This document shows positions 13,779 to 54,383 of a stretch of DNA of 64,000 nt, in pieces (the first letter of the stretch is position 1; every line of letters starts with the position of its first letter). The notes under the pieces were generated by a model. It was not told where the DNA came from and ran no database searches. It saw only the letters and a list, made by a program, of their open reading frames with translations. The stretch comes from Heliocybe sulcata (Eukaryota; Basidiomycota; Agaricomycetes; Gloeophyllales; Gloeophyllaceae): assembly GCA_004369045.1 (NCBI GenBank), contig ML213521.1, positions 497,720 to 561,719 on the forward strand. The letters run 5' to 3'. The translations under genes were made by a program, and so were the position numbers.

Positions 13779-13993
13779 TGGAAAAGCTGCGGACGACATG
13801 CGTCAAGGACTACTAGTCTGTCCAGCCCAAGGTCGCCATGTATTAGGCGTATTATGCGTACTGATGCCAGCTAAGACGGGCAGACGGACAGAGAACGAGC
13901 CGCCGAGCAATGTGTATGTCGCAGTTTTATTCGCATCCCACTTCCGTTATAAATTATACACACCAGTACTAAACACGCGTTTATGCTTCCTTA
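13779..13993 (+). repeat. Direct repeat, left copy, flanking family member P1
   Basis: Shares with 15834-16080 the blocks GTGGAAAAGCTGC, GCGTCAAGGACT, AGTCTGTCC, GAGCCGCCGAGCAATGTGTA with TGTCGC, and ACACACCAGTA, in the same order and orientation. Indels lie between the blocks. The two copies bracket the P1 gene about 2.06 kb apart. Confidence 0.75.
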
Positions 13994-15546: not shown

Positions 15547-15612
15547 GGTAGAGTATAGCAGAATGCTGAACGGAATGATACTCAAACGTTCCCACGCGTG
15601 CGCTCCGTTCAC
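14249..15612 (-). CDS. Uncharacterised family protein, copy P1
   Basis: Two exons with one 59-nt intron at 14521-14579, splicing PPYEG to TALVQFERS. Conserved blocks are PEGTQGFFYWYIDPNAP, LRFRVTDREHPASFSAGKDLCLPTG, PLIAIASGENYTLL and LEHAGTRTVVLRIVKLAG. They are shared with P2 (47919-49235) and P3 (53068-54293), and the intron position is the same in all three. I recognise no named domain, no membrane segment and no catalytic motif. The start is uncertain: the ATG used by P3 is ATA here (codon at 15462-15460), so translation would begin at the in-frame upstream ATG 15612 or downstream. The first residues of P2/P3 are basic and Ser/Thr-rich, which could be a mitochondrial presequence (inference). 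Confidence 0.6.
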
Positions 15613-15833
15613 ATACGCGCGACCATTTATGATCCTGCCTCTCCTGCCTCAAATCCTGCCTCAAACCCTCGTTAAAATCTGCTCTGTTAAAGGGTGGACT
15701 GTTGTTTTCGCCAGTAGCCTGGTAAAGACTACAGCACCGAAAAGCTGTATATATGGCACAAGCCCTGGACATCTAATGTGGACCAGACTTTCCCGACATA
15801 TTTCCAACACTTACCTCAGACCTTCCTCGTAAG

Positions 15834-17236: not shown

Positions 17237-18556
17237 TTAATCGACACGCTTGGGCACCTCGCCGAGCGGTAGCATGAAGTATGCGTCTCGGCGCGTGTTC
17301 ATCTCCGCAAGGGCCATGTAGTATGCGATGAATGCAGTAATGGCGCCGAGGACTCCGCCGGCTTTCGTGACTGTCACAGATGCAGTGAATTCACCTACGG
17401 AGGAGTGGATGTCAGCCTCAATGCTTGGTACGCGAATGTCCATCTGGAACTTACCACATGCGAGTACGATGAACGTTACTGACAAGAACGAAAGGAGGAA
17501 GATCATTGCCCACGATTTCCGTAAGGCGCCGAGGAGCATGAGGAACGTGAAGATGAACCATGAGACGAGGTAGATCCCGAGGGCGTTGTGGAATTCTGTC
17601 GCATTGTCGCCGTAGGACGCAGCAATGCCTGAACCCGGAATAAGGATGGTCGCGTACGACATCCAGAAGGCACCGTACGAGGTGAAGGCTATAGGAAGAA
17701 AGGTTAGCTCCGTGTAAGTGCCGACGAGAGGAGGAACATAGGAGACAATGGGGAGGAAAAGGAGCGAAGGAGTATGATTCGGGTCATGGCATACGAGGTA
17801 CGCATGCAAACGGCCGCTGATTACCTGGCGCTGACTACCCTGATCGTCCAGCCCGGGTAAAACACCGAGACAGGTACTCGCTTAGACATCGCCCCGAGCA
17901 GGCTAAACCCACGCCCGGCTGAACCTCCGACCCACTGCCGATCAACCAATCAGCCGGTGGCTGATTGGTTCACTGGGCCCGAGAAATGCGGGGAAGACGT
18001 GTGGGGTAGGTCCGTGATCCCGAGTCGCGCGGTCAGGGGTCGGCGAGGAGCGAATGGGGGAAAGGAGGATGAAGGTGCACGGCGAATGGAGTGGACCGAG
18101 GTATAGGGGGATGTACTGACCTGTTGCACCGAAGGTGTTGCCGGCGGCGAACTCCCACATACCAGCGAGGAGCTGTGCAAGCCCACCGCAGAAGATGGCC
18201 ATGCCGACGACGACGTTGGCCGTTGAGACGCCGCGTGTCTGAATGTTGATGAGGGAGAGGATGAACGTCGTCGAGGCGAAGGAAAAGAGACCCCTGCGCG
18301 ATGCAAGATCAGTGTTCCACTCATACTCCTACAGCACTGTCGCGACTTACAGAGGCCCGGGGTTGGCGATGGGCCGGTTGGGGTTGCCATTGAAGTCGGA
18401 GGGGGTGATGTTGATGGTGGTAGGAATGCCGCCCTGGCTGTTGGCATTGTAGCCGGGAATGTGCTGGATGCCGTTGATGATGGGCGGCGGCGCCTTCTTC
18501 GCGTCCTCGAAGGCGACTTCGCGGGCACCTCCGCCTTTCTCAAGATCAGTGGACAT
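17237..18556 (-). CDS. GPR1/FUN34/YaaH family acetate transporter
   Basis: Start MSTDLEKGGGAREVAFED at 18556; end GEVPKRVD at 17237. After a roughly 55-residue hydrophilic N-terminus comes the family signature NPNRPIANPGPLGLFSFA, spliced across an intron at about 18292-18350. The rest is six hydrophobic segments, including NVVVGMAIFCGGLAQLLAG, FTSYGAFWMSYATILIPG, ALGIYLVSWFIFTFLML and VLGAITAFIAYYMALAEM. An intron of about 440 nt separates FGAT from AFTSYG, and a short one follows VLACG. The family (yeast Ady2/Ato, Aspergillus AcpA) imports acetate or related monocarboxylates with protons at the plasma membrane, and some members have been linked to ammonium export. A TATA-like TTATAAAG is about 115 bp upstream. 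Confidence 0.93.
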
Positions 18557-21213
18557 CTTGCGCGGGGACTCTGAGATGGATGAGGACGCCGTTGTGGAAG
18601 AGAGTGAGGCCCGCGGCAGGGAAAGATGAAGCGGTTAAGCAGCAAAGGGCAGTCGGTCGGCACGCTGGGGCTTTATAACGGCAGAATGAGTCTCCTGCCA
18701 ATGCTGCTTACTGATTGGCCGATGCGGTGATGGGCAGCTTAGCCTGTTTCGGATCTCAACTTTGCCCAATTCGGATTTGCTACGGCACCCGCGTGACCCC
18801 ATCGGGCGTCAGATGACTGGGCTAGGGGTCTAGTCGATGTCGTCTTTCGATTAGCCTGCACGGCAGAGTGATCGGGAACCGTTGTTTTGCGGGGCAGGAA
18901 CAGCAGATGTTGGTGTCTCGCTGCTTCGCTTCTGTTCTGGTGCGTTTAGTTTTTTCTTCGCTTGAACTGCCTTTTGAACCTTGCGGTGCAGGAGAAGATG
19001 TAACCGTACTCGAGAAGTATCGTACGATTGTCGACCCCGTAATGTCCGCACTTACCGCTCATGTCGCTAGATGTTGATCATGAGGTGGACCGTCTCCAAT
19101 ACCCTCGCCGTTACAGATCAACTCCGCCCCAATACATTGCCATTGTTCAGGGTGAATATTTTCGTCCTGCCATTACCCCACCAAGCTATGAAAAGACAGA
19201 TCGCATCTGAGGAACTTGACCTCTCTTGTAAGTCACAGGTCATTCTTGAAATCAGCCCTTCCCGGGCTCCCATTCGTTCTGCGACGCGCTCGGACTCGGA
19301 CTGCATACGCGATTCTTCTTCCTATTCCGGAGCCCCGTGGCCAGTGACCGCCGACCAAATTGCAGCCGCTGGATGTCGCCGTTTCCCTGACAAACGCAGC
19401 GGGACCGTTTGCCCGACATTTCACCTGCCATCATGATGCATGACGAGTGACCCTCCTTGGATTGACGAGCGGCCTCCGCAGCTCTACAACACCTGAACAA
19501 ATCCAGTCCCTGCATTCAGATGACTTCTTATGAGGTCAGTACCTACCACTCCCGGTTAGATTGCAGCTATGCGCCTTCGCAGACAAGAATAGCAGCAACG
19601 TATTCGTGCGGACCGGCGATCAGTAACTTACTCAGTGGGTAGCCCGGCTATCCCGATTATCCCCATTGCCTCCTGCATTCCATTAAGGTGGGCGAATCTT
19701 AAACGTATTTGATTCTGAGACTAAAGCTTCGAATTACAAGAACGTGTCTTGCTCCGAGCGGGAGGTCGTTATCTCCTAGGCCTGCTCATCTGCAAGAAGT
19801 CTCTCGTATCCGCCCAGCTCGACTGTGGAACATCGAAATACCCCCGAAGTGCGCAATCTACCGAAATTACCCGGCGAGCCATCACTTCACCCAATGCGTC
19901 AAGGGCGGTCATTAGCCTAGTCTAGCCGATAGGGTTCAAAAGCCTCGCCTGGCATACCGGCCTATATTAGTGGGTCCAGTGCTCAGCGCTCATCAGGAAG
20001 AGACGCCACCTCAAGTCAGCGTTTGACGTCGAGGGGAAGGTTATCTTGGTCGCCCGATACCGGACTGGAGCTAAGTATCAAGAGACACCGTGGATCGCGG
20101 ACCATCTATTATTGGCGGCGGCGACGTCGTCAGTTTGGCCGCTAGTTGGAGGTCGATGGCTGTTCCGCGAGCGAGCTGTCTGCTCGTGTAGCTTGGGTCT
20201 CTAGTCGGCGTGCGACGTTCATCACGGTTGGGAGCACTTTTCCTGTCCAGGCTTGTCTCTTTCAAAATGACAGTCTACATTCTACGAACATGACTTACCC
20301 TTGCCTATCGCTTGCCCTATCCCCTCGTATCCAGCCGACACCCCTCCACTAAAGATGACGTCTGCTAGCGGTCGGCTGCGAGGCGAACACCCTGCATACA
20401 GAAGCGGTCTACTCTGTGCATCACGTAAGTAGACAAGCGGCACGATCGCTACGATATCTTCGTAAAGTCTCCGAGATTAACTACCCCCACGAGAGACGTC
20501 CGATCATTAGCCAGCGCAGTCAAGGGTCGAAGTCGGAATGTATGGTTCATATGCCAGGTGAAATGGACAAAGCATATAAACGCTCGATACTTACCCTTTC
20601 GGTTTAAGCGTGGACTTCCTAGGAGATACAATGTCATATTCTTGCAACCTTTGCGAGTCTTGTTTCAGGGAGCAGGATCCTCAGCTAAGGCTATTCAAGA
20701 GACACGAGCGAGCTAGCGTAACCGAACGACGCAGGGTGTCTTCGATAATCAATGCAAATAGTAAACTCTGACTATTAACAAGATCGTGAGACGGCGCCTC
20801 TCACCAGGACTCGTGCCATATATACAGCTTTGTGGCCTGCAGTCTTTGCCCGCCTACTGGGCTCATGTGGCGCAAACAACCCCGGTACCAGTCCAACCTG
20901 TACAGGGCAGAATTTCAAACGAGGGTTTGAGGAAAGAGCAGCTCGGGAGGTGTACCTTAATTAAGGTAAATAATGGTCGCGCGTATGCGGGAGAGTTGAA
21001 CGCCGCGCGCGTGGGAACTTCGTATCCCTCCGATTAATATTCTGTCGATTAATATTCTGTTCAGCATTCTGCTATACTCTACCCGAGCGATGGCTCCAAT
21101 AAATGACTAGAATTCATAGATACAGAGTGGATACAAGTAATATACAAGTGCGTTTGAATCCAGACTAAGCATACACCCTCCCCCCAACATGCAACACGAC
21201 AAACTCAGCGGGC
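18557..21213. other. Long gene-free stretch
   Basis: About 2.65 kb without a supported gene. It contains the upstream region of the acetate transporter and the 3' flank of the aldehyde dehydrogenase. Visible details are the palindrome ACCTTAATTAAGGT at about 20951-20966 and a 15-bp doublet CGATTAATATTCTGT at about 21031-21060. No coding exon, RNA gene or transposon end could be recognised. Confidence 0.5.
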
Positions 21214-27324: not shown

Positions 27325-30300
27325 TTATTTGTCCGCAGGGGCCCGCGGTAAGGAGATAGCAGAAGTTTGAGGAGTACCAGGAGTACTCGCGGAGCGCTGT
27401 GCCTGCTTCTTGACCTGCGCCTCCATCTTATTCCGCTGCTTCCGTATATCATCGTCCTTGAGTTTCATACCCAAGGCCATCGCGATGAATGCTTCAGGGT
27501 TGGCGGGAAGGCAATTGGGTGGCGGATTCCGGAGTATGTTCACGGCCGCGTCCGCCTTTGTACTCTCCATGATCAACTTGCGACATGATGCGGCAACCGC
27601 GAGACCGACGCGCAATAGGAATACAACACCTGCGTCTATCGTTAGCGTCTAGGTTCTTTGGAAATTAACCATACGCACCTTCGTACAGGAAGACATCCCA
27701 GACTCGGTGCAGTGTGTCAGGCGGCAGCGCGTGGGCGAAGATGGAACAGAACCTACAGAGTCTCACGTCAGCATATCAATTGCTCCGAACATTACCGCGA
27801 ACTGACGCACCATGATCTACATATGGCGACAGGGGGAACTCCCATGTCACCAAAGAGCCTCTTGGCGAGAGGCGCATCATTGGCTTCCAGCGCCTTGCCG
27901 AAAAGTGTCGCATCCACTTCTATCTGAGCGGTACTTGAGGAAAAGTATGGTCGAAGCTGGCTATCCATGAGTGAGACGAAGATCCAAAAAGCGTCTTCTT
28001 CAATGCTCTGGTGTAAGAGTTGCCCCGCAACCAGCGTCAAACCTTTTTTGAATTTTAGCATGACCGTATCATGCAGAGAAAGAGAAACATACCAGGATGA
28101 TACTGAATATCGGGGACCATGGTGAGGTATGCATTGAGCAGGTACACCACAGGTCCGTCCGGTTTCTGGAACTGCGGTTTGTCGGGGAAGAAAGCACTCG
28201 CATCCCGCTCGATGTCCGCCGAAGCAGGCACCTTTCCTCGTTTGCCTAGTTGGGTGTACAGCCCATTCATCCGCTTCGACTTACTATCTGTAAGATGTTG
28301 CCAGACGTTCGACCGTACAGACGCCGGCACGCCCTCGAGAAGAAGCTTCTTGACCTTCTTACTTTTCCGTGCCTGAGAGGCGGGTGTTGCAGACATGAGT
28401 GATATCCACTTCAATTCTCGCTGGCGGTGGGCTTCGATGGAAGGAGCGGCAGAGTCCGAGGGCGTAGTGGGGAACCCAGACACGTCGGAAGGGAGATTGG
28501 GTGACCGAGGCAAGGACAATGATGACATCGCTGGGCTATAAGGTCGCAACACGCTCTGGCCATCGGGGAGGAGAACGGAGCTCTCCCGTGCACTTGGTAG
28601 TGAGTCCTGACTAGTACGTGAGGAAGCCACAGCAGACATAGTAGGTCGAACGAGCTCGAAGTCCATATCTTTCACTTGGACCGTCTCTTGTCCCGGTAGT
28701 GGTGTCGATGGCCCAGGACTGGTGGCTCTGGTACTCCTTGTCTGCAGCGAGGCTAAGGACATCTTCGACCTCAGTGACGGTCTGTGGTTACTGCCAGGTG
28801 GTGGGGATGTCGTGAGAGACCGCGTCTCGCTGTAGTGTGAACCATCAGTACCCCCGGATCGGGTTCGTGTCAGTGTCAATGATGGCCGAGTTGGATCTGG
28901 CTCTGATGAATCGGCTTTCGTGGAACCTGGAGTATCCGGGATTGATGTGTCCAGAGATCGCTTGCGCGGAGACGCTGGAGGCTCAGCATCAGCATCTACA
29001 GATTGAACAGGCACAGACTGGACAGGCACGGGCATGGGCTGCATAGGCGGAGACGCAGCAAAAGGAGAGGAGGGAGGCTTCATTCCGAGAGCGCCGGTGG
29101 AGGCAACTTGGCGTAGACTTCGTGGAGCGGCGGGAGGAGAGTCAGATGAGGGTGCAGGCACCGCTAGTGGCGAGGGAATGAACACCTGAGCCCCTTTCTT
29201 GAAGGAAGGACTGGCGGGAGACTTGAAACCAGGGCTCGTAGGTGACGAAGGCACGCTGCTACTAGACATTGCCAGCGGTGACGGGCCGTGGGTCATACGC
29301 CTAACTGGTCCAGCGTGATGAGATACAGTAGCTTGCTGAGCAGCCACCGGTGTTGCTGCCGAAGCGGACACAGTGCGAGACACCACTTTAGATTGCAGGA
29401 CACGCGGTTTACCTTCAGCGTCTCCACTGTCGTGTCCGGTTAGTGTCATAAACCCATAGCGATTAGAACTAATTACCTAGTTTCCTTGGAAGGCAGGGCT
29501 ATCTCCGCTATTGGTGAATCAAAGCCTGAGAATGACCTGGATCTAGGTCTCGGAGTCTGAGCTTTTGGAAAGAAATTGGCTCTAGGGATGACATTCCCAG
29601 CACCAGGTGAGGGCTGCTGTGGGGAACTGGCCGGACCATCCTGCGGGACAACTGGCGTTGGCGGGGCTGAGCCACTTCGGTCGATAACAGGCATCGTGTT
29701 GATTGGGGGTGGATTTGGTTCCATAGTAGAAGGCCTCCGAATAGCACCGCCCGCCAATCGATTAGCAGGGACAGACTGTGGTGGCTCCAACGAGAAGACA
29801 ATCGGCACAGGCCCCATAGAGGTACTCATATCCACTTGGCACATGCCGTAAATCGTCGTACGCCGCATAACACCATTGGGGCCGTACCGAGAAGCAGCGG
29901 CCATGCGAAGAGTATGCACCAGGTTATTGGTAGGCGTCTGTTGAGGCGGCAAAGGAGCACGTCCATACATCGGTCCAGCAGGAGCAAATGCGGGAGCCTT
30001 CGGCGCATTTGGATGTGGCATGAAGATACTCGTACGAATAAATTGGCTGGGGGGCCTCCCGGGTTCAGAGGGGCGGCGGCGGGGTTGCAAGCCTCCATCA
30101 GGAGTAGCGAGTTGCGTCCTTGGGAGAACGGGCTCTGCCGAGCCATCTGCAGCCAGTTGAGCTATGGTAGGTGGAGAAGCCTCAAGAGTAGGGGAAATAG
30201 GTGCGTCGTCCTTTTCATTTTCTATATCCAACGTAGCACAGGCCGGGGAATCGGGGTATGAACTGGCTGAAGAGGGGGTATCAGGCGGTGCCGAGAACGT

Positions 30301-32208
30301 CGCGCGGATGGAAGAATCAGGAATGCCGTCATCGTCCTCGACGATGATACCAACGCTTGATTTAGGTGACATGGGAGATCGAGGTGACTGAGGTGCGGAG
30401 TCCAGCTCTTGAGGCGGTGGGCTGACGCTAGGGCTGGGACGGTCTTTCTCGAATCTCTCGCGCAGCACCGTGGCTGCCCCACCGGCCTTCGACCCCGAGA
30501 GATCTGGGAGTGGCGGGGCTGTAAGGGGAGGAGATAAGGAGGAAGTGCCGGACGGGTAGCGTGAGGAGACGGGGGAACCAAAAGTCGTATGTAAAAGCGG
30601 CGAAGGAGCCAGGTTCAATGGTGCAGGTCTATCCTTCACTGCACGGGATAGATCGAGACTAGGCGGGGAGCCCTCGGTCTCCTGCTTCGACTCTCCTGCC
30701 GCTTCCGTCGCCACTGGTTGCGGAGACGGCTGGACATCGTCCGTACGCTGATTGTCCTCAGTCCGAGGCTCTATCGGTGAGAGTTGCTGGGAATATACCG
30801 ATTCTGCTTCTGCTTCTGCTTGAGCGTCCTCTTCCAGTGACCGCCGCCTGATGTTCAAGGGCATGGTAGTCTGCGTGTTGGCGAGCAGCTCTTGTGGAAC
30901 CGGCGGAGCATCAGAAGCTATCGTGTACATTGACGCTCGAGAGAAGCGAGACATTTTCGACGCCATAGAGTACCGAGAGTAGCGATAGTCATCGTATATA
31001 TCCGACGCGCCATCCCATTCACCTGTGGAACTGGAATGCAGAGAAGCGCGAGAGTCACCGTAGACAGATCCGCCCAGGGACTTGGCGTCAGAGTTCGTAC
31101 GGGAGCGAGTACCCGATTCTACGGAGGTTAGTGTATCAGTCTGGAGGACAAGGATGTCTGCTCACCTGCTGCGATAGGTGGGGGCGGCATGAGGGGAGGC
31201 TCAGGCTCAGACGCTGCCTCCGGCGAAGCATGCATCAGCTGCGTTTCATCGCTCTCCTCACTCGCGACTGATGAATCATCATCCTCATCCCCACCATCCG
31301 CCATTCCCTGCAATAGCGACAGACCAATACCCGTCTCCCCATCCGACATGGCCAAGGAGATTATTGAACTACGGCGCGTGTCGGCAATGGATGGGTGTGC
31401 AGATAGAGGAGTTGGAGGCGCAAGAGAGTGAGGGGGTTTGTCCACATGATGTACTTCGCCCAAGTCCTCTCGCATGGGTGTTCTATCTTCCTCGGTTGTA
31501 CTGAATTGCGGTGCCTCTGCACGTTCGTCTGACCCCTCCAGTGGCGATTTGGACAGACGTTGTTCCAAGGTGGGGTCTGGTGAATCTAATGGCGTATCAA
31601 GGATAGATTCAGGACCCGTGGAACTTGAAGAATAGCTAACGCTCGGGGCAGGCGGGCCGTCATCCTCAGACATCTGGGAATCGTGGTGGTAAGATGAGGA
31701 CGCAACCAAAGACAATTGACTTGAGGTCGGTCGCAGCGCAGCGCCAAAGGAGGAACTTGAACTCTCCAAGTCCGGGGGTGACAACGTCCGGATGGTTGGA
31801 GAAGGACTGTTCGACACGGAAACTGCCTTGGGAGTCACGGATGAAGAGCGCTTGGTCATGACGGGTTTCTTCAGCTTGCCGTGGACCTGGACGTGCTTGG
31901 CCTGAAACCGGCCGACGACCCCCTCACAATAGCCCTAGCGCCGTGTAAGCGTTTCGTAGCTCGCGTTCTAGATACTCTACGCACCAAATACCAACCCTCC
32001 TGGTCCACCAGTTGCATTAGGACGGTGATTTCGTCATCCTGAACATTCACTCAAAACCGTTTCATCTGGCATGACCATATGCTGAGCTCACCTTTAAAAA
32101 CATCAGTTGCTCCGAGCTCTCTGCAACGCAATCCTGCAAAGCGGTACATCTGCCTATGCCACCCTTCGCCGCAAACCTTGTCCAGCGCGCTAGCTCTGCA
32201 GGCTCCAT
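27325..32208 (-). CDS. SH3 + TBC domain protein (Rab-GAP-like, catalytic fingers missing)
   Basis: Roughly 1,400 residues. Start MEPAELARWTRFAAKGG at 32208. The first exons splice to TALQDCVAESSEQLMFLK-DDEITVLMQLVDQEGWYLGYCEGVVGRF (quoted in pieces), a clear SH3 domain at about residues 22-75. Then about 1,000 residues of Ser/Pro-rich, presumably disordered sequence (exons to 28400). The C-terminal third is a TBC domain: LLLEGVPASVRSNVWQHL, ADIERDASAFFPDKPQF, DIQYHPGLTLVAGQLLHQ, EEDAFWIFVSLMDSQLRPYF, HRVWDVFLYEG. It ends KLKDDDIRKQRNKMEAQVKK and SLPRAPADK at 27325. TBC domains normally need IxxDxxR and YxQG fingers to speed GTP hydrolysis by Rabs. Here these read IERDASA and YHPG, so it may bind Rabs without GAP activity. 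Confidence 0.85.
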
Positions 32209-32617: not shown

Positions 32618-32625
32618 AGGTAAAG

Positions 32626-33481
32626 AGGACCCCCGATAATAGGTATCGATGCCTGATCGCGGTCCGGACAAAAAATCGGTCGCCCAGACGCAAATGCCTG
32701 ATTTTATCCGGACAAAACGGCCGAAAACTGCTTGAACGCCTGTTTCATTGTCCGGACAAATCACGGCCATAATCTATAAGCCTGATGCGTAGTCCGGACG
32801 AAGGCTTGTTGGTGCAGTCGGCAGGCGTACTGTGGTTATCGTGTCTGACTCGGTGACGCAAGGTTCGAATCTCACGTAGTGCATTTCTTTTCGTTGTATG
32901 GTGTCCCATACAGATTTCTTTTCTCTTTCATTCTTGAGTACTACGAGTCAGCTTATATATAGTATGCTAAGTTGATAATGATATATTATTGACAATCAAA
33001 GTGGTCATATACAATATGAAAACAAGCTAGCAATAGTGCTGGGTAGCGTGCTTTCTGTACAGTATCCATGGACATCCGAACGTGTAGCTCACAAGTCCTA
33101 GCAGCCGTCACTGAATTAGAGAAGTTACGCGCCCGCTATCGATGGGCACGGAACAAGGATGGGGATGGTGGGCACGAGTAGTAGGATGGTTACCTAACGA
33201 GTGTATGTTTGATTATGGGCATATAAACTCGTTGCATCGCTCAGAGAACGCTAGAAATCACTTCTACAGACGATTTATAGCTTTTGAAACGCCTGATCCG
33301 GGAATCCGGACGGAAAACTGGGCTGAGGCCTAAGCCCGAAGTCCGGACAAATGGCCTCGAAATCTCGGACCCCTGATCTAATCCGGACAAAAACAGCCGA
33401 TTTTTGGAAAATTTATCCGGACAAAATTCCAAAATTTTGGAAATCCGGGATCAGGCATCGATACCTATTATCGGGGGTCCT
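32626..33481. mobile_element. Element E1: non-autonomous DNA transposon, 856 bp
   Basis: Perfect 33-bp terminal inverted repeats (32626-32658 and 33449-33481, outer bases AGGACCCCCGATAATAGG). An 8-bp target-site duplication AGGTAAAG lies at 32618-32625 and 33482-33489. Inside are eight copies of TCCGGAC, four near each end: 32663, 32707, 32751, 32793 and 33305, 33342, 33382, 33416. Several are preceded by CCTGAT, forming a roughly 44-bp spaced array. Such subterminal arrays commonly act as transposase sites. No frame longer than about 63 codons exists, so it needs a transposase from elsewhere. An 8-bp duplication fits hAT, P or KDZ-type superfamilies; the ends do not decide which. The perfect ends suggest recent activity. 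Confidence 0.92.
32811..32882 (+). other. tRNA-like segment inside E1
   Basis: Contains TGTGGTTATCGTGTCTGACT (D-arm and anticodon-arm-like) and GGTTCGAATCT, ten of eleven bases of a Pol III B box. The acceptor stem does not pair well and the T stem is weak, so it is probably a tRNA-derived relic rather than a working gene. Confidence 0.35.
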
Positions 33482-33797
33482 AGGTAAAGTGAACCCTTGA
33501 CGATACCGGAACAAGGGCAAGGCTTCATTCAGGCCCAGTGAAAACTGGATGTAGCCAGGTCGTGCCAGATCAAGTCAAAATGGGACCTTTCGGTTGTATC
33601 GATGTCGCTCGCGCTCACTCGGTACGAGCCAAGATTTAGGACTCGGATTTGTCGCCGCTGTCAACCGAACCTCTGATATTGTGCCAGAATGAGAGAAACT
33701 GTAGTATCGTCGAGATCACCCGGCTAGACACGATTTGAGACAATTATTTATATGATAGAACTAGTACTACAAGCATTATATACATTTTACTAATGCA

Positions 33798-34538
33798 CTA
33801 CAGCTTCTCGCCGACATAGGCACCAGCGCGAACTGTGAGTTCCAGCAGCCGCTCCCTGTACGATCTTCTCGCCATAGCGCTCGGTCTCCTACAGCAGCCG
33901 TGGAGGTACTATCAGCAATATGAGCGCGCGGTGAGCAAAGCAACGACTACATACCTTCATATCACAGTACGCGCGGTGTCAGCAAAATGAGTGCGAGACA
34001 TCAGCGAAATGAGTGCGCGGTGAGCAAGGCGACGACTACATACCTTCATATCACAATGCGCACGATATCAGCGACGTGAGCGCATGGTGAGCAAGGCGAT
34101 GAATACATACCTTCATATCACCACGCACGCGAATCACGATCCCCTGTTATTTTTCTGAGCGGGTGATGTGAGCGGTCGTTCTGCAGATGAGATCACACGC
34201 GCAACGTACATTTGCCTTGCAGTGTACATTCCATTGCTTCACCGTGACGATAATGTCAGCCGATAGCAACAGCGAAAATTGAACTTTAATACGTACTGTT
34301 TGCCCGTCGGGCCCAATGCCCTGCCAGTAAAGGTACTTCTTGCCCTCCATCCATATTCAGCCTGATCTGTTCTCTCTTGCAGAGGCTGATTCTGAGTATA
34401 AGTACAGTAGCATAGTAGCTTACTCACCGGTCTCACCATAAACAGATGAGCTTTCTTCGTATTGAGCTACCTTTTGAAAGTTTCGCGTGTTACCCGGGTA
34501 TCCGTTCTTTCGAACAGCCAATCGAAGTCCAGTGCCAT
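33798..34538 (-). CDS. Possible small spliced gene inside E3
   Basis: Candidate exons on the minus strand: MALDFDWLFERTDTRVTRET (from 34538), KKYLYWQGIGPDGQT (about 34350-34300, followed by GTACGT), GIVIRVRGDMK (about 34143-34111, followed by GTATGT) and a last exon after CTGTAG near 33890 reading ETERYGEKIVQG or, in the alternative frame, LTVRAGAYVGEKL. The exon ends are good splice donors, but I could not fix all frames and I recognise no family. It may be captured host sequence or a degenerate element gene. Confidence 0.25.
33912..34130. repeat. Tandem repeat of about 67 bp in E3
   Basis: Three copies, marked by TACATACCTTCATATCAC at 33948, 34037 and (with one change) 34104. Each is preceded by GTGAGCAAGGCGA-like sequence. 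The first spacing is 89 rather than 67 because a 22-bp piece (AAATGAGTGCG..) is itself doubled. Read on the minus strand, each copy ends in GATATGAAG|GTATGTA, a splice-donor-like site. Confidence 0.8.
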
Positions 34539-35394
34539 TGTACCTGGATGGCCGCAGTCAGTGCCCCAGATGAGAAGCACATAGTCGCAGCTTGAGACAG
34601 AGCAGGGGGGCAGAGAAGAAGGGGGGTCAAGCAGACGTGGTAGGTGGTGGAAAGAGAGAAGACGCGCGTCGCATTCGTAGAGCGAGCGCGCATACAGCCA
34701 ATATCGGCGGCAACTTCCGGGACTTGAATTCGTATATATGCATATATACTGAATATTATTGTAACAGTCAACCAGCTCATCGAGGTCAATGGCACTCAAC
34801 CTGTTTGAATTAGTTAGCCAGAGACAGACAAGTAATCTAGTGAGACAGCTCGGATGGGATTAGACCGCCTTATCAGTCTCGCGGTTTTTGACAAGTTTTG
34901 GACATACGTCGGACCGATCATTGCGCTCTCAGAGGTTCTGGCACGACCTGGCTACATCCAATTTTCACTGGGATTCAGGGTCGGCATGAGAATTGCTCAA
35001 GCTCAGAGACCGAGCAACTTCCACTGCGGGAAGTAAACCCGCTTGACCGAAGTGCCGAAACCTCCACGCCGAAGTGCCCAAGGCACTGCTATACGGAACC
35101 CTGCTTACTCGGGGGACTTTCTCTGGAAGTGCCTCGGGCACTTATGCTACAAGTGCCTTAGGCACTAAGTGGGACATTTTTACTAGTACGGATAAGTGCC
35201 CAATACACTTTGAGGCGGTGTATAGTGCCTTTGGCACCATAGTCGAACGCCGTAGACACTAGCCTTTCGGTGCCTCGGGCACTTATTGTAAGCAGAGAGT
35301 GCACGGCAACTCAATGGCGTAGACACCATCCTGTAAGTCTTAGGCACATATATGAAGTATGTTGAGCGATGTCGATTATACTTGTATCTAATAC

Positions 35395-36090
35395 ATGATA
35401 CGTGGTCATACTACCGAATCACAGGCCACACGGCCGGCTTCTCGTACATCCGCACAGCTCAACGCGCATGTCACATTAACTGCCACTGATAACCGCACCA
35501 CAGACGGAATCAACTTCGCAGCTGACGCTGATCTGTCGGTGGTCGCCAAGGACTTCCGCAAGGTCAAGGAGGTGGAAACCGAGAGACTGGAGACTTACAC
35601 AGCAGCAAAGGAGCAGCTTGAGGAGTCCGAGCACAGCACCACTGAGTGGGGAGACAACTGGGATGCAATCGCGAAAAGCGGAAGTAGCGACGTAGACGAT
35701 GCAACTGCATGTGATGAACAGACTGGTGATGAGCGACGTTGTGCTAAATGGAAAGGTAATTCTCACACCTCAAGCCCTTACTGCCAGTCAGCATCGCGAT
35801 ACGCATGCTCTTGTGCCCTTCGACGTGTCCGGCCGGACCCAGACTTTAAGGCTCACATGGATGGCGGCCAGGCAGCACCCACAGATGTCCATGACCTGCA
35901 CAGCCTTCATGTGCTCCTTGCAGCTCATGCGTCTCCTAGATTAGTCGCCAGTGCCAAAAACTCACCCGAGCCATTTTTGACAACTCCTCGACGTTATCGC
36001 GACACTCAAGGTCTTGGCTTGTTCATAGTGTTGTGCATGCTCAATGCTGCCAGAACGCAGGCAAGCATTGCCTTCTCAAAGCTCTACTAA
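35395..36090 (+). CDS. Uncharacterised frame inside E2
   Basis: A 231-codon frame whose first half is protein-like: Glu/Lys-rich and probably coiled coil (AKDFRKVKEVETERLETYTA, AKEQLEESEHSTTEWGDNWD). A plausible splice donor (AAAG|GTAATT) follows KWK near 35755, so the second half may be intron. No family was recognised and no transposase motif is seen. Confidence 0.35.
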   Translation: MIRGHTTESQATRPASRTSAQLNAHVTLTATDNRTTDGINFAADADLSVVAKDFRKVKEVETERLETYTAAKEQLEESEHSTTEWGDNWDAIAKSGSSDVDDATACDEQTGDERRCAKWKGNSHTSSPYCQSASRYACSCALRRVRPDPDFKAHMDGGQAAPTDVHDLHSLHVLLAAHASPRLVASAKNSPEPFLTTPRRYRDTQGLGLFIVLCMLNAARTQASIAFSKLY

Positions 36091-37169
36091 GAGATCCATT
36101 GAGTGCATGAATACGACAATGATCATAAGAAGCGCATATACATACCTGAATGGCGCATATACGACCTCGGCACACGCATACATTCATCCAGCAGACCAGG
36201 GTTGTCCTGACCTTGCTCCGAGTGTCAATAATCTATGGATACAGCAAGTTATAGGGCCTTGACCTTGTTGATCCGTTGTGTCTGGGGAGCCATGCAAGTG
36301 ATCGAGGGATCCGTCCCTCTAGAAAAGAATACCCTCGATATTGAACATGCCCACACTCATAATGCTGATATCGCTGGAAAGGAGCCAAATGAACATCAGC
36401 CATCTGGACAGAATAAACAGCATCACGAACAGCGCATCCAGACTCTGCACTCTGCAGGTCGTCGGCATGGCCATCAAGCAAATTTCGCGGCCGGGTTGCT
36501 TCAGCATATAGGGGGAGCGACTGAGTCCAGGTGTCGACATCGTGAGCGCGGGAGAGAGCTGAGGGTTGAACGTTGAGCGCTGAGCTGCGAGCGTGGTCAT
36601 GGCGGTCAAGAGGAAATAACAGATTTGAAGTCCGACAAGAGCTGGCTTTTGGACATCCGACTGATCACGTGATCATTCTGCCTCTGCATGGTGGCCTAAT
36701 TTACACGCCGCGATTGCACTTCCTTCTAAGTAAGCTTCTACAATCTCAACCATTGCTCTTTTTACATCCAACCGCACTAGCTAGACAGCGATATATGCGA
36801 TGCCCATAAGCACTACTGTAGGTTTGTGTAGCTCTGCCTATGAATGTGCAGAGAATTCATAATACTGATTATTGATTATTAATTTGCTTAACGGAACCGA
36901 GGAAAGGAACGGAAAACACCTCCACGCCGTCCGATCCCGAACGCAAAAAAAACCACTTACGATGGCGAATGACATATTCTGGGTAAGCCTAACCACGGCA
37001 AGGACACAGACGATATGACCTTCAGGAGGAAATGGGTTTGGCGAGTCGTGGGTCAAATCAATATTGTTTTGTTCCTCATGCTATTTACTCACTCTGGCCA
37101 GTTCGAGAGAACCGCCTACCCAAGAATGAGGTGCAATCTGTCAGCGGTAGATGCATTGAACGTACATGG

Positions 37170-37769
37170 TAGAATGCTAATAGGAGACTGCCTTCCGTGG
37201 AGATTGAGGAGGCTGGCGACATGGAGTTTGCGAGCATCGACGAAAATGACTTTGCCGTGGTACGTGAATGGCACTGTCTATGATCTAGCTATGCCTACCT
37301 CTGCTATCTCCAGGGATCAACTCGGTGATCTTGGGGCAATAGACCCAAGAAACCCACCTCCCGTCTCAAGCCCAAGAACTCGGAGTCTGCCTCGAAGCAG
37401 ACCGAGTCTGAGCTATGCAAGCAAGACTCTATCGCCTCGGTTGATTCTCAGGAGCCTCCGTCGCCGCCTCCGTCACCACCTCCCACCAAGCGGACTCGCA
37501 ACTATCCCGCAGCACCTCCAGCCGGGCGAGCAACAAGGTCATTGCAGCACAATGTAGCAGAGCCGGATAATGCAGCCGCGAAGCACAAGATGAAGACAAA
37601 GGTCGTCAAGCGTAAGGCGGAGGTCCGGCCGGAGGGTGAGCCCGCAGTACGAAAGCAGAGGATGACGGCGGAGACGAAGACCGCGAACAGCAATGGCAAC
37701 GGGAAGGCGAAGGTGAAGTCGAAGGAACACTTCTCCTCGCCGTTGACAAATGAGGCCGAGGATTTCTAG
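37170..37769 (+). CDS. Lys-rich exons inside E2, incomplete model
   Basis: One exon reads LPSVEIEEAGDMEFASIDEN followed by DFAV and a GTACGT donor (about 37256). A second, in another frame, runs from about 37350 to the stop at 37767-37769. It contains ASKQTESELCKQDSIASVDS, PPSPPPSPPPTKRTRNYPAA, KTKVVKRKAEVRPEGEPAVR and ends SSPLTNEAEDF. It is basic, low-complexity and nuclear-looking. I could not find an acceptor that joins the two exons in frame, so the gene model is incomplete or decayed. No transposase or named domain. Confidence 0.3.
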
Positions 37770-38582
37770 GTGCGGTATGTGCTACAAGTCCTTTGATCAG
37801 TCCGCCGTGCTGTCTCATGTCTTCTCGCCGAACAAAGCTGCTGGTCATCAAGGTCTCTCGAAACCATTGTCTTGCAAGACCCGACATTCAACAACACATC
37901 GACACTCTGTAACTGTCCGACTGCTTCCGTGTCTCTAGATCGACGTGCTGGCTCAACAAGTACTGGTGCTTCTTCATGCTGTTATCTATGGTCAGAAGTC
38001 TCCGTCTCACATGTTTGTGTCTTTGTCTTTTCGGCGCTTGATACTCGATGCCTTACTGCTCGTCAAGTCGCTGCTGGCTTCAATCTTTTCTTGTGCCAAT
38101 ACTAATCGACTGCTTCGCTTGCCGCAGCATCTTGGCATCCTTCTTTGCACCTTCTCGACTTCAAGATACGGCCTTCGCACACTCTCAGCGGCAATGGGCA
38201 TTGCCCGTTATCTCGAGCGTTTATGTTCGCTTTCGCTATGTTTATTACCAGCCCGCAATGCACCGTTAATGCTCGTGTATACTAGAAATGCTATAACTAA
38301 TGTATAAAGCACTCGTGATGCATGCTTTTCGTCACTTTTTATGAGTGTCTTAGACTCTGCTAGTACGCGTCCAGAAATTAGTGTCCAAGGCACTGCTGCG
38401 ACAAGTGTCCAGGGCACTTGGCACCGGTCGGGGTCAGCGCGACACTCGACGGTAGTGCCTCGGGCACTTGCCGACAAGGCACTTAATACACGTGCTACGG
38501 ATTTCAGTGCCTTGGGCACTTCCTGGTAGCGGTTAGTGCCTAAGGCATTGCCACCAAGTGGGTTTACTTCCCGCAGTGCTTC

Positions 38583-38891
38583 CAGAATGTCAAGCTGCAT
38601 ATACTCTTCGGGAAGTCTTAGCCGCAAAGAATAGGAATGCCCTTCAACATCTCCAATAGCCAGGATGAGAGGGCGCACCCCGTCGAGCACAGGGCTGTCG
38701 GAATTCGCTACGGTCACTCAGTCATTGGCGGAAATCAGGTCGTACCATGAGCTGGAAGGACCTGGATATTTGCGCCGGCACCCTCATTCGCTGGGAAATG
38801 GCCTGAATGATATTCATACAACAATAGATCCCACAAATAAGATTATAGATGTCCCGCGTGAAGGCCTACCGCATCCATCACCTCTGGCCGA
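38583..38891. other. Spacer between E2 and the BRCT gene
   Basis: Downstream of the BRCT gene. On the minus strand a frame reads VLDGVRPLILAIGDVEGHSY and so on, and is cut by E2. Read across the pre-insertion sequence it would close soon after (LSNSHADPE). It may be a host exon or chance. Confidence 0.35.
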
Positions 38892-41800
38892 TCACGAAAC
38901 AGCCGCCTTCTGGAGCCTGTACTTCGTGTCAGCGATGTCCAGTGTTTGCTTCAGGGCGCAGAGCAAAAGCCACTCCGTGTCATAGACAGTAACGCCATTG
39001 TCGACGAGCGGCTCCCAGATCGATCCGTCTTCCTCGCACGATATGACATAGTGAGAATTGTGTTGACCATTCAATAAGCGTACGGTCGGGCGATTGTTCT
39101 TAGCCACCTACTCGCATCGTCAGTATGATTCAGGACAAGAGCAGATATAACGCACCTCGCCGCCGTTCGCCTTAATTACTGCCTGGTACAGCTCGCGGTT
39201 CTTTTGGATCGCTGGTGTTATGTGGAATGTTTTCCCGGAAAGTAGCCCCTTTCTCTGCTCTTTCAGCAGCGTGGCGCGCTGTAAGGCTTCGCTGAACTTG
39301 AAGTCATATCTAGCCTCACCCTCTTCGTCGAGGAGGAGATACTTCTCCACCGCTGAAAGGCAAAAATAGGATATGACATTATATTCGCAAGTAAGACGAG
39401 ACGGACTTACGAAGCAGCTTGCCTGCATTTACAGAGTCGATAGCCCACTCTGAATTCATGACGAAGGGTGCCTGAGGTATGGCACACAGGAGCTTCTCTG
39501 TGCGGACTAGTCCTTTCACGACGAGATGGGTGCAGTCGGCGACCTTGCTAACAAACTTCACGCCCATTTCCTTGAGCGACTGTGTAGAGCACGGTTAGTG
39601 AATGAAGGACCAGACACGTCCGACTGGGACAGCTCATACCTCGACGATCTGGTCGCCAAGTTTGACTTGGGTGGTGAGGAGACGGATCCCCTTGCTGTAA
39701 GCTAGCTTAGTCTTGAAAGGAACGAACGAATGCAGCACTTACTGTGACGCTGCCCCCACATTACTAGCCCGCTTGTTTGCCTTTGGACCTTGTTTGCTCT
39801 TGCTGATCGTTACAGTCTCCTGGTCCGAGTCTTCCCCAACGCCGTCGACGGGCGTCTGGTTCTCGTCGCTCTTCCTAGACCTTTTCCTCCGGCTGCTGTT
39901 GTCGTCGCCTCCAGTAGACACCCTCTTCTTTCCATTCTGCAGCTCCTTCTCCTTGAACTCTTTCTCCCATGGACCCCGTACGTTCCAGTGCTTCTCATTC
40001 TTCTCCCATTTGAGCATATCCGGCATGACATGATCATGAAGCATCTGATTAGCCTTCAGTGCCGCAGACCGCTTCGCGCGGGCGTTGTTCGGAGTCTCCA
40101 TTCCATCTGCGTGCTCATCAGACTGCAGGCGACTCGATGTCACAGGCGTCAGCGACGAAGAGCGAATAGCCGGCATGGATTTCTCCTTCCTCGATGACCT
40201 GTCTGGAACTTCTTTAGCCTCCAAATGAGTCGCGTCGCCCTTCATTGCTCGACCCCGCCCTCTCGTGGGCGAATAGGTAGACGCAGCCACACTCTTCTTC
40301 TTAGGAAGCAGCGGGATCTCCACAGATTCCAGAGTCGTCTTACCCTTCAACAGCGAGGGCAGTGTCGCGGAGGGAGAGCTCGCCTTGCCTTTGCCCCGCG
40401 ATTTCGAAGGACTGCTCGGCCTCTCTCGCAGCAGAGTGCTGACGTCAGGCATATCTTCGTCGCTCTCTGAGTCGTCAAGTACCAGCGCCTGTACCGCTTG
40501 CCTGTGCTTTGAGGGACCGGGAGCGTTGTCGTGCTCATCAGAACTAGGTGTCGCTGGACGAGGTTTCTTCTTCGGCGACGTCTTAATGGGAATGACGATT
40601 TCTGAAACCGGTTTCGCCATTGTCCTCGGCCGCCTTCCGCGGCTGTCGGGGACCTCGTTCACCTTCTCGCCTCCTTCAGCCTCTGCATCAGACGTCTCTG
40701 GGTGCGATAGTTCTGCTATGCTGAAAGGCTTCTTCACGGGGCTGAGGCTCTTCGCTATGCGCCTAGACCTCCTTGGGGAAGCTTCAATGACATGAACATC
40801 TGCGTCCTTTTCCTCGTCGACGAAATCCGAATCAATAGATGCAGCCTCTGCTCTCGGTTTCCTTGGAGTTCGTGGCTTCGTCACGATATCCGTTAGATTG
40901 CGGTCGGCGATGCCGGCGTCGATGTCGACATCTATCACCGGGACACTGGCAGGGTCATCCATGAGAATCACATCTTCGACTTCCATCATGTCGTACACGC
41001 TGCCCACAGTGCTGGTCGGCGCCTGCAGCTCCGTCTTGTTCACTTGGCTTTTCCTTCCGCTCGGCTCCTCTATCTCACCCGCATCGAGTGCTCGCTCCAA
41101 CTCTAGCTCGAGCACCGCACGCCCGATCTCCTTCTCGCCGAGTACAGTAGAGAAGTCTACACCCGGTGGGAAGGAGATATACTTCTCAAGCCCGACCGTA
41201 AGGTTCCGCCACTGTACAAAGCAGTCCTCCAGCCATGTATGGTTGACAACCGGTATGTTCCAGTTATACGCTTTGTCGACCTTATTCCCGCCGATGCTAA
41301 TGTAGAGGATTAGGGCGATATAAAGCGATTGACCAAAGACACATCGCTTACTAGGCAGCGATGACGACCGTATTGGCATTCGACATCGACGGCGTGAAGG
41401 AGCCTCCCATCGTCATAATAAGCTTTCGTATATAGTCCCGTGCTTCGCCCGTGTAATTGGTAATCGTAATGATCTGGGTCTGAATGAGTACCGTAGAGAC
41501 GCTACGCTGGGATTGTTGTACGCACATGTGAACTGAACCCGGGAATGGGGTCCTTAGGTATAGGAAAATGCAAAAGCTGGTCAGACGGTGCAGCCAATAC
41601 ACCCGTGGAATGGACGTGAAACAACCATGACAGCGTCCCGATGGTTTTCCCAGACTTCAAAGCCTACAAAGGGAGTCAATACTGGAGGATATGAATGACG
41701 CAAATTGCCCACCCTGTAGTATGCCGCTCCCGCTCGATAGCGCGTAATGTAAACATCTGCGTCTTCAATCTTCTCCGCCTCCTCTTCTTCATCTCCATTG

Positions 41801-47778: not shown

Positions 47779-47918
47779 TAATGAGAGGAAATGTACGGAG
47801 TCGAGGATGATGGGAGGATCGGAGATCCACATATGGATTATTCAAACATTATGCCACATTGCAAAAATTTACCTCATTACTTCTGCTTGGTCGGTCGTCG
47901 ATTCTGGCTATCTTGCTC

Positions 47919-49235
47919 ATGCTCCCGCGAAGAGCAGTCGCTGTCGTCGCGCAGGCCAGTGGACGTTCTCTCACCACTTCATTCCATCCCGGATGTTGCA
48001 CCCGCTTGGTATCATCGGTGTACTACGCGTCCTATGGGCAGAAGCGCAGGGCCAGTGGACTTGCTGAAGTCTACACGAAAAGGAAAGGAGCGTCTTCCGA
48101 TGATAAAACCGGTCGACATCGATCTCCAAGTCTACCTATACCATTAAGGACCTTGGACCCGAAGAATCTATCGTCCGAAGACTTTGTGGTACTCCACGGT
48201 CAAGTAATGGTTGTGAAGCCCGTGCACGATCTGAGTCTTCCATTATTGCACCTCACGTACTACCAACAGACAGGGTACAAATGCGACTTTCCTAAAGGCA
48301 CGCAGGGGTTCTTCTACTGGCACTCCGAGCCTGGAGCGCCTGAACTCATGGCTCAGGTCCGTTTCCGCATCACGGAAAGCGAGGACCAGGCGACGTTCTC
48401 CTCTGGGCGCGATCTCTGCTTGCCCACGGGTGTTCCCTGGAGTATTCCTTTGCTTACCATGGCACCACAGAAGAGCTACGAGCTGCTGCAGTCTATCCTG
48501 CTCTCGGAGGGGCTTGTAACCCAAGCCCTGTTGAAGAGAGCGGCAAATGCAACCACTACGCCCCGGCGCAAGGGCGCTGGGCCTGGATTGCATAGTAACT
48601 TCGTCGGGCGGTTTGGCGAGCCATTCGGCGTCTCGCTACAGGCTGAGGCGGTCAAGGTGTGGATAACCGACGATTCAACAGCCTTGTCCGTTGGGATCCA
48701 AACTCCGTTTCGACTCTATCACAGCCACAGGCCACCATATGAAGGTGAGCGGCGCTGCCGCCGCAACGCTAATGCTCGCTCACTGCCTTCTGACCCACCC
48801 ACAGGTTTTGCCCTCGTACAGTTCGAACGCTCAACTCTGCCGGAGCATGCAGGCTCCCGCACTGTGGTCCTCCGCATTGCCAAGCTTATTGGGCTGAGAA
48901 AGGTTGATATCGGACCCCCTCCCCCAGGAGCGCCCGAACCCAAGGAAGGAGAGTTGGTTATGCAAAAAAACCGCGGAAAGTTCAGTAAGAACGGGTGGTC
49001 CGGCGGAGAAGGTTGGATTCCATGGTCCGTTAATGTCGACGCGGCGGATCCCCACTTGGAGCGTACGCAAGCTCTCGAGCTGCTGTATCGAAAGGAAGGC
49101 CTTAGCGAACCCAAACAGGAGGAACAGGGCGAAGTGAGCACATTGGTTTTGCGTGGCGATGCGAATGCTAACTGGGAGATCATGAGATGGGAAGCCTTGA
49201 AGCTGCTCCTGCCGATGAAAAAACCCAGTGGTTGA
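47919..49235 (+). CDS. Uncharacterised family protein, copy P2
   Basis: Start MLPRRAVAVVAQASGRSLTT at 47919, chosen because it aligns with the P3 start (MLWQRTTLITAQVLSCSPRR). The frame is open further upstream but without an ATG. One 60-nt intron at 48745-48804 joins PPYEG to FALVQFERSTLPEHAGSRTV, the same position as in P1 and P3. Conserved blocks: LDPKNLSSEDFVVLHGQ, PKGTQGFFYWHSEPGAP, VRFRITESEDQATFSSGRDL, GWIPWSVNVD. P2 is longer at the C-terminus than P1/P3 (ends MRWEALKLLLPMKKPSG). It is the most diverged of the three and probably the ancestral-type copy. No named domain. The N-terminus is basic and could be a mitochondrial presequence. It starts 140 bp from the divergent aminopeptidase gene. 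Confidence 0.75.
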   Translation: MLPRRAVAVVAQASGRSLTTSFHPGCCTRLVSSVYYASYGQKRRASGLAEVYTKRKGASSDDKTGRHRSPSLPIPLRTLDPKNLSSEDFVVLHGQVMVVKPVHDLSLPLLHLTYYQQTGYKCDFPKGTQGFFYWHSEPGAPELMAQVRFRITESEDQATFSSGRDLCLPTGVPWSIPLLTMAPQKSYELLQSILLSEGLVTQALLKRAANATTTPRRKGAGPGLHSNFVGRFGEPFGVSLQAEAVKVWITDDSTALSVGIQTPFRLYHSHRPPYEGERRCRRNANARSLPSDPPTGFALVQFERSTLPEHAGSRTVVLRIAKLIGLRKVDIGPPPPGAPEPKEGELVMQKNRGKFSKNGWSGGEGWIPWSVNVDAADPHLERTQALELLYRKEGLSEPKQEEQGEVSTLVLRGDANANWEIMRWEALKLLLPMKKPSG

Positions 49236-52586: not shown

Positions 52587-52784
52587 TTGGGCCTTCTTCC
52601 CGTGTTGTCTGGGCTTCCGCACTACTTAGGTGGCGAAAAGCCATGTAACCTTGCATCCCTCATTTAGAGGCGCAAGAAGGGGTGGCATTTCACGGACTCG
52701 TTCATGTCACGGTTACGATTCGGCTCGGATGTATATACTAAACTATTGCTCGCCGCTTAGTGTACAATCTTTGCATTCATGCTT

Positions 52785-54383
52785 ACTTAGCTTACGTGGA
52801 TATTTCTTTAGATCTGGACTTGCATTGGACTTCGTGCGAGTAGGGTTGTTTATGTGTATATACGAATATCGCTGCACAGACGGCAGTTGGATGTGCCCGA
52901 CTGGAGACGCCTCTCCCGTCGTTCCCTGGCTCCCAGTCACCAGGTATTTTCCTGTGCACTCTGCGTGCGACGAGCATGTCCAAGCTGTCCGTTCTATCTT
53001 CTCCCCGCCGCTCCCAGTACCAAGGCAGTCGGTTTCCAACATAGAACACCGATCGTCTATCTTGCAGTCAATAAGCCTCCTTGCCTTTGCTAAAATCTTC
53101 GTTCTCGAAGAGGAGCTGGAGTGCTTTGGTGCGTTCCCGCTTGGGATCCGACTTGTCGACATCCACGGACCACGGGATCCAGACTGGCCTGGGTCCAAGT
53201 GTTCGTCTCATGACAATGTCTCCTTCTTTCGGTTCTGGAGCAGGCAGAGCAGACGGATCGCCGTCCGCCTTTCGCATCCCAGCAAGCTTGACGATGCGGA
53301 GGACCAAAGTGCGGGTCCCTGCATGCTCCGGCAAAGTGGAGCGTTCAATCTGGACGTGAGCTGTGCCTACATACGGGCCAGAGTGTAGTGAGCGAGCATC
53401 AGCCTCGCAGTTCTGCAATACGCACCTTCGTATGGCGGCGGCTTGGACCCGCGAGACCGGAATAAACTGTGGAATACGAGGAGCACAACTTTTGAAGCAC
53501 CTGTTACCCAAACACGGGTATGCCTGGCGTGTAGCTTTATCCTGAATGGCTGCCGAAACTGCCAGATAAAATGACTGTGCACATTGGGGCGGATGTCGTT
53601 CCGTGTTGAGAGGTTACCAGTCGCACCCGCCGCTTTGTCCATCACATCTTTCGTTACAAGCCGCTCTGAGAGCAGAATGCCGCGGAACAGAGTGTACCTC
53701 TCACCCGACGCGATGGCAATCAGAGGTAGTGTCCAGAGTTCGCCTGTAGGCAAGCAGAGGTCCTTTCCAGCGGAGAAACTCGCCGGATCCTCGCTGTCTG
53801 TGACGCGAAATCGCACTTGTCCGGCAAGCAGAGGAGCTCCTGTATCAATGTACCAGTAGAAAAACCCCTGCGTGCCTTCAGGGAAGGGTTGGTGGCGGTA
53901 AGGAGGCGTGGAGGCCATGCAGTACGGAATTGGCAGCTTGCGATGGATGCCAAAATGAGGCGGCGACTGCAAAACCGGGTGTGTTCCGCGTAGTACCATA
54001 AAATGTTCTGACGATATATTCTTCGCGTCTAAAGTCCCGAGAACTCTTGTCATTCTGGGCCGCCTTGGATTTGTTGTGGTTTCAGCCCGACGTCGGCGAG
54101 TTTTGGCAGCTGAGGGCACCACGGTGCTCACCCCTCGAGCCATACGAATTTGGGTAAGTTTAAGTCTGCCCTTTTGCATGTCAAGCCATGATACCGAGGG
54201 ACTGCATCGTTCCACACCAGGCAGGCTCGACTTTCGCCGCGGCGAACAGCTTAACACTTGCGCCGTAATAAGAGTCGTCCTTTGCCAAAGCATGACTGAG
54301 GTGAAGATGTCAAAGGTTCGGCCGTCAACCAGGCAGGACCAAATACTGAGCCAGCGATGACTTCGAAGCCGATAGTACGAGGC
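52785..54383. repeat. Segmental duplication, copy 2 (matches 13990-15546)
   Basis: Contains P3 plus about 280 bp of 3' flank and about 90 bp of 5' flank shared with the P1 locus (for example TTAGCTTACGTGGATATTTC and CCGTCAACCAGGCAGGACCA). Beyond both borders the similarity stops abruptly. Confidence 0.85.
53068..54293 (-). CDS. Uncharacterised family protein, copy P3
   Basis: Start MLWQRTTLITAQVLSCSPRR at 54293; intron 53367-53425 (59 nt) joining PPYEG to TAHVQIERS; stop at 53068. Blocks FPEGTQGFFYWYIDTGAP, VRFRVTDSEDPASFSAGKDL, LPLIAIASGERYTLF, LPEHAGTRTLVLRIVKLAG and WIPWSVDVDKSDPKRER are shared with P1 and P2. The frame is intact and the start codon, lost in P1, is present. Basic residues and no acids in the first 35 positions suggest a possible organelle presequence (inference). 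No domain that I can name. It is the closest relative of P1, in the same orientation 38.8 kb away. Confidence 0.75.

Follow-up and report, generated by a model that had tools for sequence, protein, structure and literature searches.

Clusters of small DNA transposons have been described in plants. In carrot, clustered DcSto Stowaway elements include independent insertions very near other elements as well as nested unrelated miniature inverted-repeat transposable elements, and the maize bz locus is cited as a 'transpositional hot spot' in the same source (PMC3695323, available part). A comparable cluster was found in the basidiomycete Heliocybe sulcata, on a stretch of 64,000 nucleotides of contig ML213521.1 (assembly GCA_004369045.1, positions 497,720 to 561,719 of the forward strand). 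This whole stretch is called the window below, and positions are counted from its first letter. The block at 32618-38582 consists of three elements, E1, E3 and E2 in this order, each with its own inverted ends and its own short direct target duplication; they are un-nested and separated by two short spacers. Like the DcSto and bz clusters, the block brings together small DNA elements, some of them unrelated there, at or very near each other. Unlike those clusters, which concern several plants or loci, it is confined to a single locus, and its three elements have duplications that differ in length (PMC3695323, available part). With a probability of about 0.65, the block represents three unrelated, non-autonomous cut-and-paste DNA transposons that inserted successively in a short intergenic stretch, with tolerance of the insertions as the main cause of their survival. 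Nothing recognisable as this locus appeared among the titles and abstract openings listed in topical literature searches. Five end or repeat strings were also searched for in paper texts; in the ten papers listed, of 38 matched, the sole string present is the short TCCGGACAAAA, and the work there is unrelated.

Structure and placement of the three elements

The features of the block are as follows (TIR, terminal inverted repeat; strand given where one is assigned).

32618..32625: E1 left target duplication AGGTAAAG, with an exact copy at 33482-33489
32626..33481: E1, an 856-bp element with TIRs, apparently non-autonomous, superfamily unplaced, with TCCGGACAAA-type subterminal repeats near both ends
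32626..32662, plus strand: E1 left TIR, 37 bp, 36/37 complementary to the right end
33445..33481, minus strand: E1 right TIR, pairing with the left TIR
33482..33489: E1 right target duplication AGGTAAAG, 8 bp
33490..33526: ancestral spacer between E1 and E3, 37 bp
33527..33533: E3 left target duplication ATTCAGG
33534..34972: E3, a 1439-bp element with TIRs, apparently non-autonomous, with an internal degenerate direct repeat (33911-34150)
33534..33569, plus strand: E3 left TIR, 36 bp, 35/36 complementary to the right end
34937..34972, minus strand: E3 right TIR, pairing with the left TIR
34973..34979: E3 right target duplication ATTCAGG, 7 bp
34980..35017: ancestral spacer between E3 and E2, 38 bp
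35018..35021: E2 left target duplication CTTC
35022..38578: E2, a 3557-bp element with CACTG..CAGTG ends, CACTA/EnSpm-like and apparently non-autonomous
35073..35283: E2 left subterminal palindromic repeats AGTGCCNNNGGCACT, six copies (at most 2 mismatches)
38380..38549: E2 right subterminal palindromic repeats of the same AGTGCCNNNGGCACT kind, five copies
38579..38582: E2 right target duplication CTTC, 4 bp

The first-pass annotation had described three elements with their own inverted repeats and clean duplications of 8, 7 and 4 bp, separated by spacers of 37 and 38 bp, and these boundaries were confirmed to the base. The ends of E2 (CACTGCGGGAAGTAAACCC) are perfect over 19 bp and 83% matched over 35 bp, E1 begins with AGGAC and the TIRs of E3 begin with CCCAGTG. 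A reading of the E3 duplication as 8 bp with one change (CATTCAGG/GATTCAGG, ends shifted) was set aside, the 7-bp reading being exact. When folded as single strands, the subterminal regions had z values of -2.4 to -3.3, as expected from their inverted and palindromic repeats, and no function was drawn from this. The repeat inside E3 is an 84-nt unit in three degenerate direct copies, of which two show 83% and 63% identity to the first.

Dense subterminal repeats are typical of CACTA/EnSpm elements, and E2 carries 11 copies of its palindrome at the ends. Members of the CMCT clade (CACTA/EnSpm) have 5'-CAC..GTG-3' termini and duplications of 2-5 bp, and E2 resembles them in its CACTG..CAGTG ends and the 4-bp duplication CTTC (PMC12730594, available part). 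The EnSpm elements of Puccinia striiformis differ from E2: three families are described there with 3-bp duplications and an encoded transposase, and no transposase was recognised in E2 (PMC12730594, available part). From its ends and duplication, E2 is provisionally assigned to CACTA/EnSpm (CMCT).

The end consensus of hAT elements begins with (T/C)A(A/G)NG. The start of E1, AGGAC, departs from this consensus and E1 was therefore not filed as hAT. Duplications of 8 bp are found in Zisupton, Dileera and ordinary hAT elements, which E1 resembles in duplication length and in having inverted ends; duplications of 7 bp characterise hAT7 of the Pucciniales (PMC12730594, available part). E3 agrees with hAT7 in its 7-bp duplication and inverted ends, and differs in that no transposase, on which the phylogenetic placement of hAT7 is based, was recognised in it (PMC12730594, available part). 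Kyakuja was also considered for E3 and rejected: its elements (two Laccaria families) likewise make 7-bp duplications and have CA..TG termini, but lack TIRs, whereas E3 has TIRs of 36 bp (PMC12730594, available part). Provisionally, only E2 is filed in a superfamily, and E1 and E3 are left unplaced.

Independence, excess over chance and coding content

The conclusion that E1, E3 and E2 are three separate families of independent non-autonomous DNA transposons is supported. Over 40 bases from the left end, the elements match one another at 9-11 positions in register and at no more than 15-16 whatever the offset, in a comparison made without a shuffled control. These unrelated left ends point to three families. 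The duplication lengths differ as well (8 bp in E1, 7 bp in E3, 4 bp in E2) and E1 and E2 carry subterminal repeats of different kinds, so that the proposal of three separate families in the first-pass annotation is upheld. It is most improbable that a single composite element, or a block moved as a unit, has the three repeat pairs as its parts. The three elements do adjoin in the sole copy at hand, as such a composite would, but every part has a clean duplication of its own and the ends are unrelated. Furthermore, a strong enclosing inverted repeat was absent from the 25 pairs given in each of two lists of inverted repeats. In the first list, the only pairs that bracket the block measure 14 nt (86%) and 16 nt (81%), a grade that recurs throughout it. 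The un-nested arrangement does not reveal the order of insertion.

The window was scanned for inverted ends abutted by duplications, with ends of at least 14 and duplications of at least 4 as the loosest setting, and ten first-order Markov sequences of window length served as a random control. At the loosest setting the window yielded 12 candidates, against 0-3 per Markov sequence. Ends of at least 20 were present in 6 of the 12, among them E1, E3 and E2. The other three of these six were rejected, as their 'duplications' are self-complementary (TCGA, AGCT, CCGG) and the inverted repeat simply runs on. The six candidates with ends of 14-19 were set aside too, being of a grade seen in random sequence or parts of longer inverted duplications. 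Only E1 and E3 among the 12 have a duplication of at least 7 bp. None of the ten Markov sequences contained a candidate with ends of at least 20, and none contained one with a duplication of at least 7 bp. By itself the 4-bp duplication of E2 is weak (1 in 256 by arithmetic), and the call of this element is supported by its termini and subterminal repeats. Indeed, 11 of the 14 matches to the AGTGCCNNNGGCACT palindrome in the window (at most 2 mismatches) lie at the two ends of E2; the window as a whole would be expected to hold 3.2, and none of 100 shuffles reached 14. Similarly, with 1 mismatch allowed, the window has 12 TCCGGACAAA-type matches, of which 10 are close to the ends of E1, against a whole-window expectation of 4.0 and 0 of 100 shuffles reaching 12. 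These 10 matches occupy 7 distinct places, six of them being overlapping pairs on the two strands of a palindrome.

All 43 stop-to-stop frames of at least 60 amino acids that overlap the block were scanned against Pfam. None reached the cut-off, and no transposase model appeared even below it, a scan that leaves room for spliced, shorter or unfamiliar transposases. The matches below the cut-off were taken as noise (E values: DUF3199 0.082, SH3_19 0.027, DUF5551 0.084, FAM171 0.18, DAAD 0.74, tRNA_Me_trans_M 0.039). Two frames were also tried against the PDB, of which one gave a weak match (E 0.38) and the other none. Because the listed open frames hold no transposase recognisable by Pfam, all three elements are best read as non-autonomous, moved by enzymes that would be encoded elsewhere. 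Exact end sequences of E1, E2 and E3 had no match in viral contigs, and that of E1 had none in prokaryote genomes, as expected for DNA whose gene content and short introns, the latter seen by eye, point to a fungus.

Some internal features of the elements were seen in passing. E1 contains, at about 32810-32885, a tRNA-like B-box sequence (GGTTCGAATC) recognised by eye; a tRNA-like stretch was not supported by ARAGORN (bacterial code), and Rfam gave no match to it. Over the 7-kb block, Rfam returned one match, mir-4427, with an E value of 0.26 and 23 bits against a cut-off of 86. The interior of E2 at 36961-37769 is gene-like, and intron-like splice signals were seen in it by eye; this segment is possibly captured host sequence. 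The frame at 37329-37766 within it is basic and rich in lysine, and has no credible Pfam match (best E 0.74) and no PDB match.

Genomic setting and causes of the clustering

The block lies between two genes on the minus strand:

38892..39107, minus strand: 3' end of a BRCT-domain gene, stop codon at 38892-38894 (BRCT_2, E 7.4e-12 for 38895-39107)
31128..31859, minus strand: open frame of the gene on the other side, with its ATG at 31859 and a distance of 758 bp to the E1 left duplication

The right duplication of E2 lies 309 bp beyond the stop codon of the BRCT gene, in agreement with the earlier placement of the site at the 3' end of this gene. A weak TBC-domain match is found on the same strand at 28055-29449 (RabGAP-TBC, E 0.00038, below the Pfam cut-off), and its frame and the one at 31128-31859 probably belong to one gene. 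Removing the elements leaves an ancestral gap of 1161 bp between the two genes, and all three insertion points fall within 86 bp of it, or 94 bp with the E1 duplication. Insertion into an older gene or element was considered and found unsupported. Next to the junction, the joined empty site has a minus-strand frame that is open for about 60 codons, of which the uninterrupted part of 45 amino acids (38583-38717) matched no Pfam family at E 0.01, and the flanks of the block have no match elsewhere in the window. Two exact 9-bp inverted repeats occur within 600 bp of joined site, about as many as rough arithmetic predicts; one contains the E3 target duplication, and nothing was drawn from this overlap.

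Each element would have been mobilised by a transposase supplied in trans from elsewhere in the genome, and the staggered cuts would have differed between the three (8, 7 and 4 bp), each leaving its own duplication. The survival of the elements together is probably due mainly to their position, past the 3' end of one gene and some 760-850 bp upstream of the other, where insertions would be the least harmful. The general accessibility of intergenic DNA may have contributed. The first-pass annotation had instead proposed a local hotspot, such as open chromatin at the 3' end of the BRCT gene or a preferred DNA shape. At a true hotspot, a local feature (DNA free of nucleosomes downstream of the BRCT gene, a bound protein or a DNA shape) would draw transposases of different superfamilies to the same 100 bp. 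This was not established and is considered rather unlikely. Three unrelated elements within 86 bp do invite such an explanation, and a title on the hAT element Hermes inserting into nucleosome-free regions in vivo stands in the reference list of PMC7337890 (available part). However, a model in which three insertions fall at random in the 1161-bp gap gave p 0.016 for falling within 86 bp, and p 0.028-0.063 when 300-600 bp of gene-near DNA were excluded. These values concern a single locus picked after the fact, and the hotspot stays unproven because the one site was chosen for looking odd. The target moreover has a guanine plus cytosine (GC) content of 51%, close to the 52% of its flanks and the 53% of the window, and no common motif is evident by eye at the three insertion sites. 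The 50-bp windows immediately left of the target have 42-48% GC, and the minimum for the gap, 30% in a 50-bp stretch, is reached some 220 bp rightward of the E2 site, away from the target.

Several points weigh against the favoured reading, three mobile elements kept mainly through tolerance. When older elements are modelled as equal targets, the probability of three un-nested insertions within 86 bp drops to 0.0008-0.003, depending on the order, which favours some real site preference if element bodies are equally attractive. The harmlessness of the stretch is itself presumed, as part of the explanation by tolerance. Moreover, no further copies of E1, E3 or E2 were found within the window, where the sole match outside the elements, at 18194-18211, covers 18 bp of E2 (E 0.016); their mobility as families is thus deduced from structure alone. 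Even so, it appears unlikely that transposases with three different staggers were all drawn to the same 86 bp, preferring this spot over the larger bodies of older elements. Modelled numbers for the whole genome bear on this. Depending on the element numbers and tolerated lengths assumed, between 0.00007 and 18 such triples are expected genome-wide, with 0.04 for 1000 elements in 10 Mb, 1.2 for 2000 elements in 5 Mb and 4.6 for 5000 elements in 10 Mb. With thousands of such elements per genome, triples would thus be expected by chance under these assumed numbers, which speaks against a hotspot. A genome-wide expectation that may exceed 1, given thousands of TIR elements, also lends something to coincidence alone, that is, uniform insertion with neither tolerance nor preference, noticed because a 64-kb window was read for oddities. 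This is nevertheless highly improbable, as the window holds only three elements of such grade and the local density outside the cluster is low. Attraction to the site explains the data no better than tolerance of a presumably harmless stretch does. The cluster is ordinary in kind and neatly exemplifies a pattern already known, and the statistics give a modest hint of preference.

Other features of the window and meaning of the cluster

Several other repeats were seen in the window. Related copies of one gene-like sequence lie at 13977-15546, 48287-48903 and 52773-54379, the first and third sharing 78% DNA identity and both showing 65-66% with the second; the open frame at 47859-49232 had no Pfam match at E 0.01. 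A large inverted gene duplication (7316-9565 and 10362-12618) extends over 2.3 kb at 69% identity, and the single copy that was scanned matched an NAD(P)-binding oxidoreductase. Several short stretches recur in inverted order between 15545-15768 and 20804-21085, some 5 kb from each other (90% over 39 nt, 93% over 28 nt); no clean target duplication was seen by eye, and the pair is possibly an older element. At 56742-57402 there is a tandem-like repeat whose period is about 220 bp, with 79-80% identity.

The present yield of the locus is a clean set of three structurally defined elements, best read as non-autonomous. Should relatives reveal that different superfamilies inserted here repeatedly, the site would let one ask which feature, common to unrelated transposases, marks a target.

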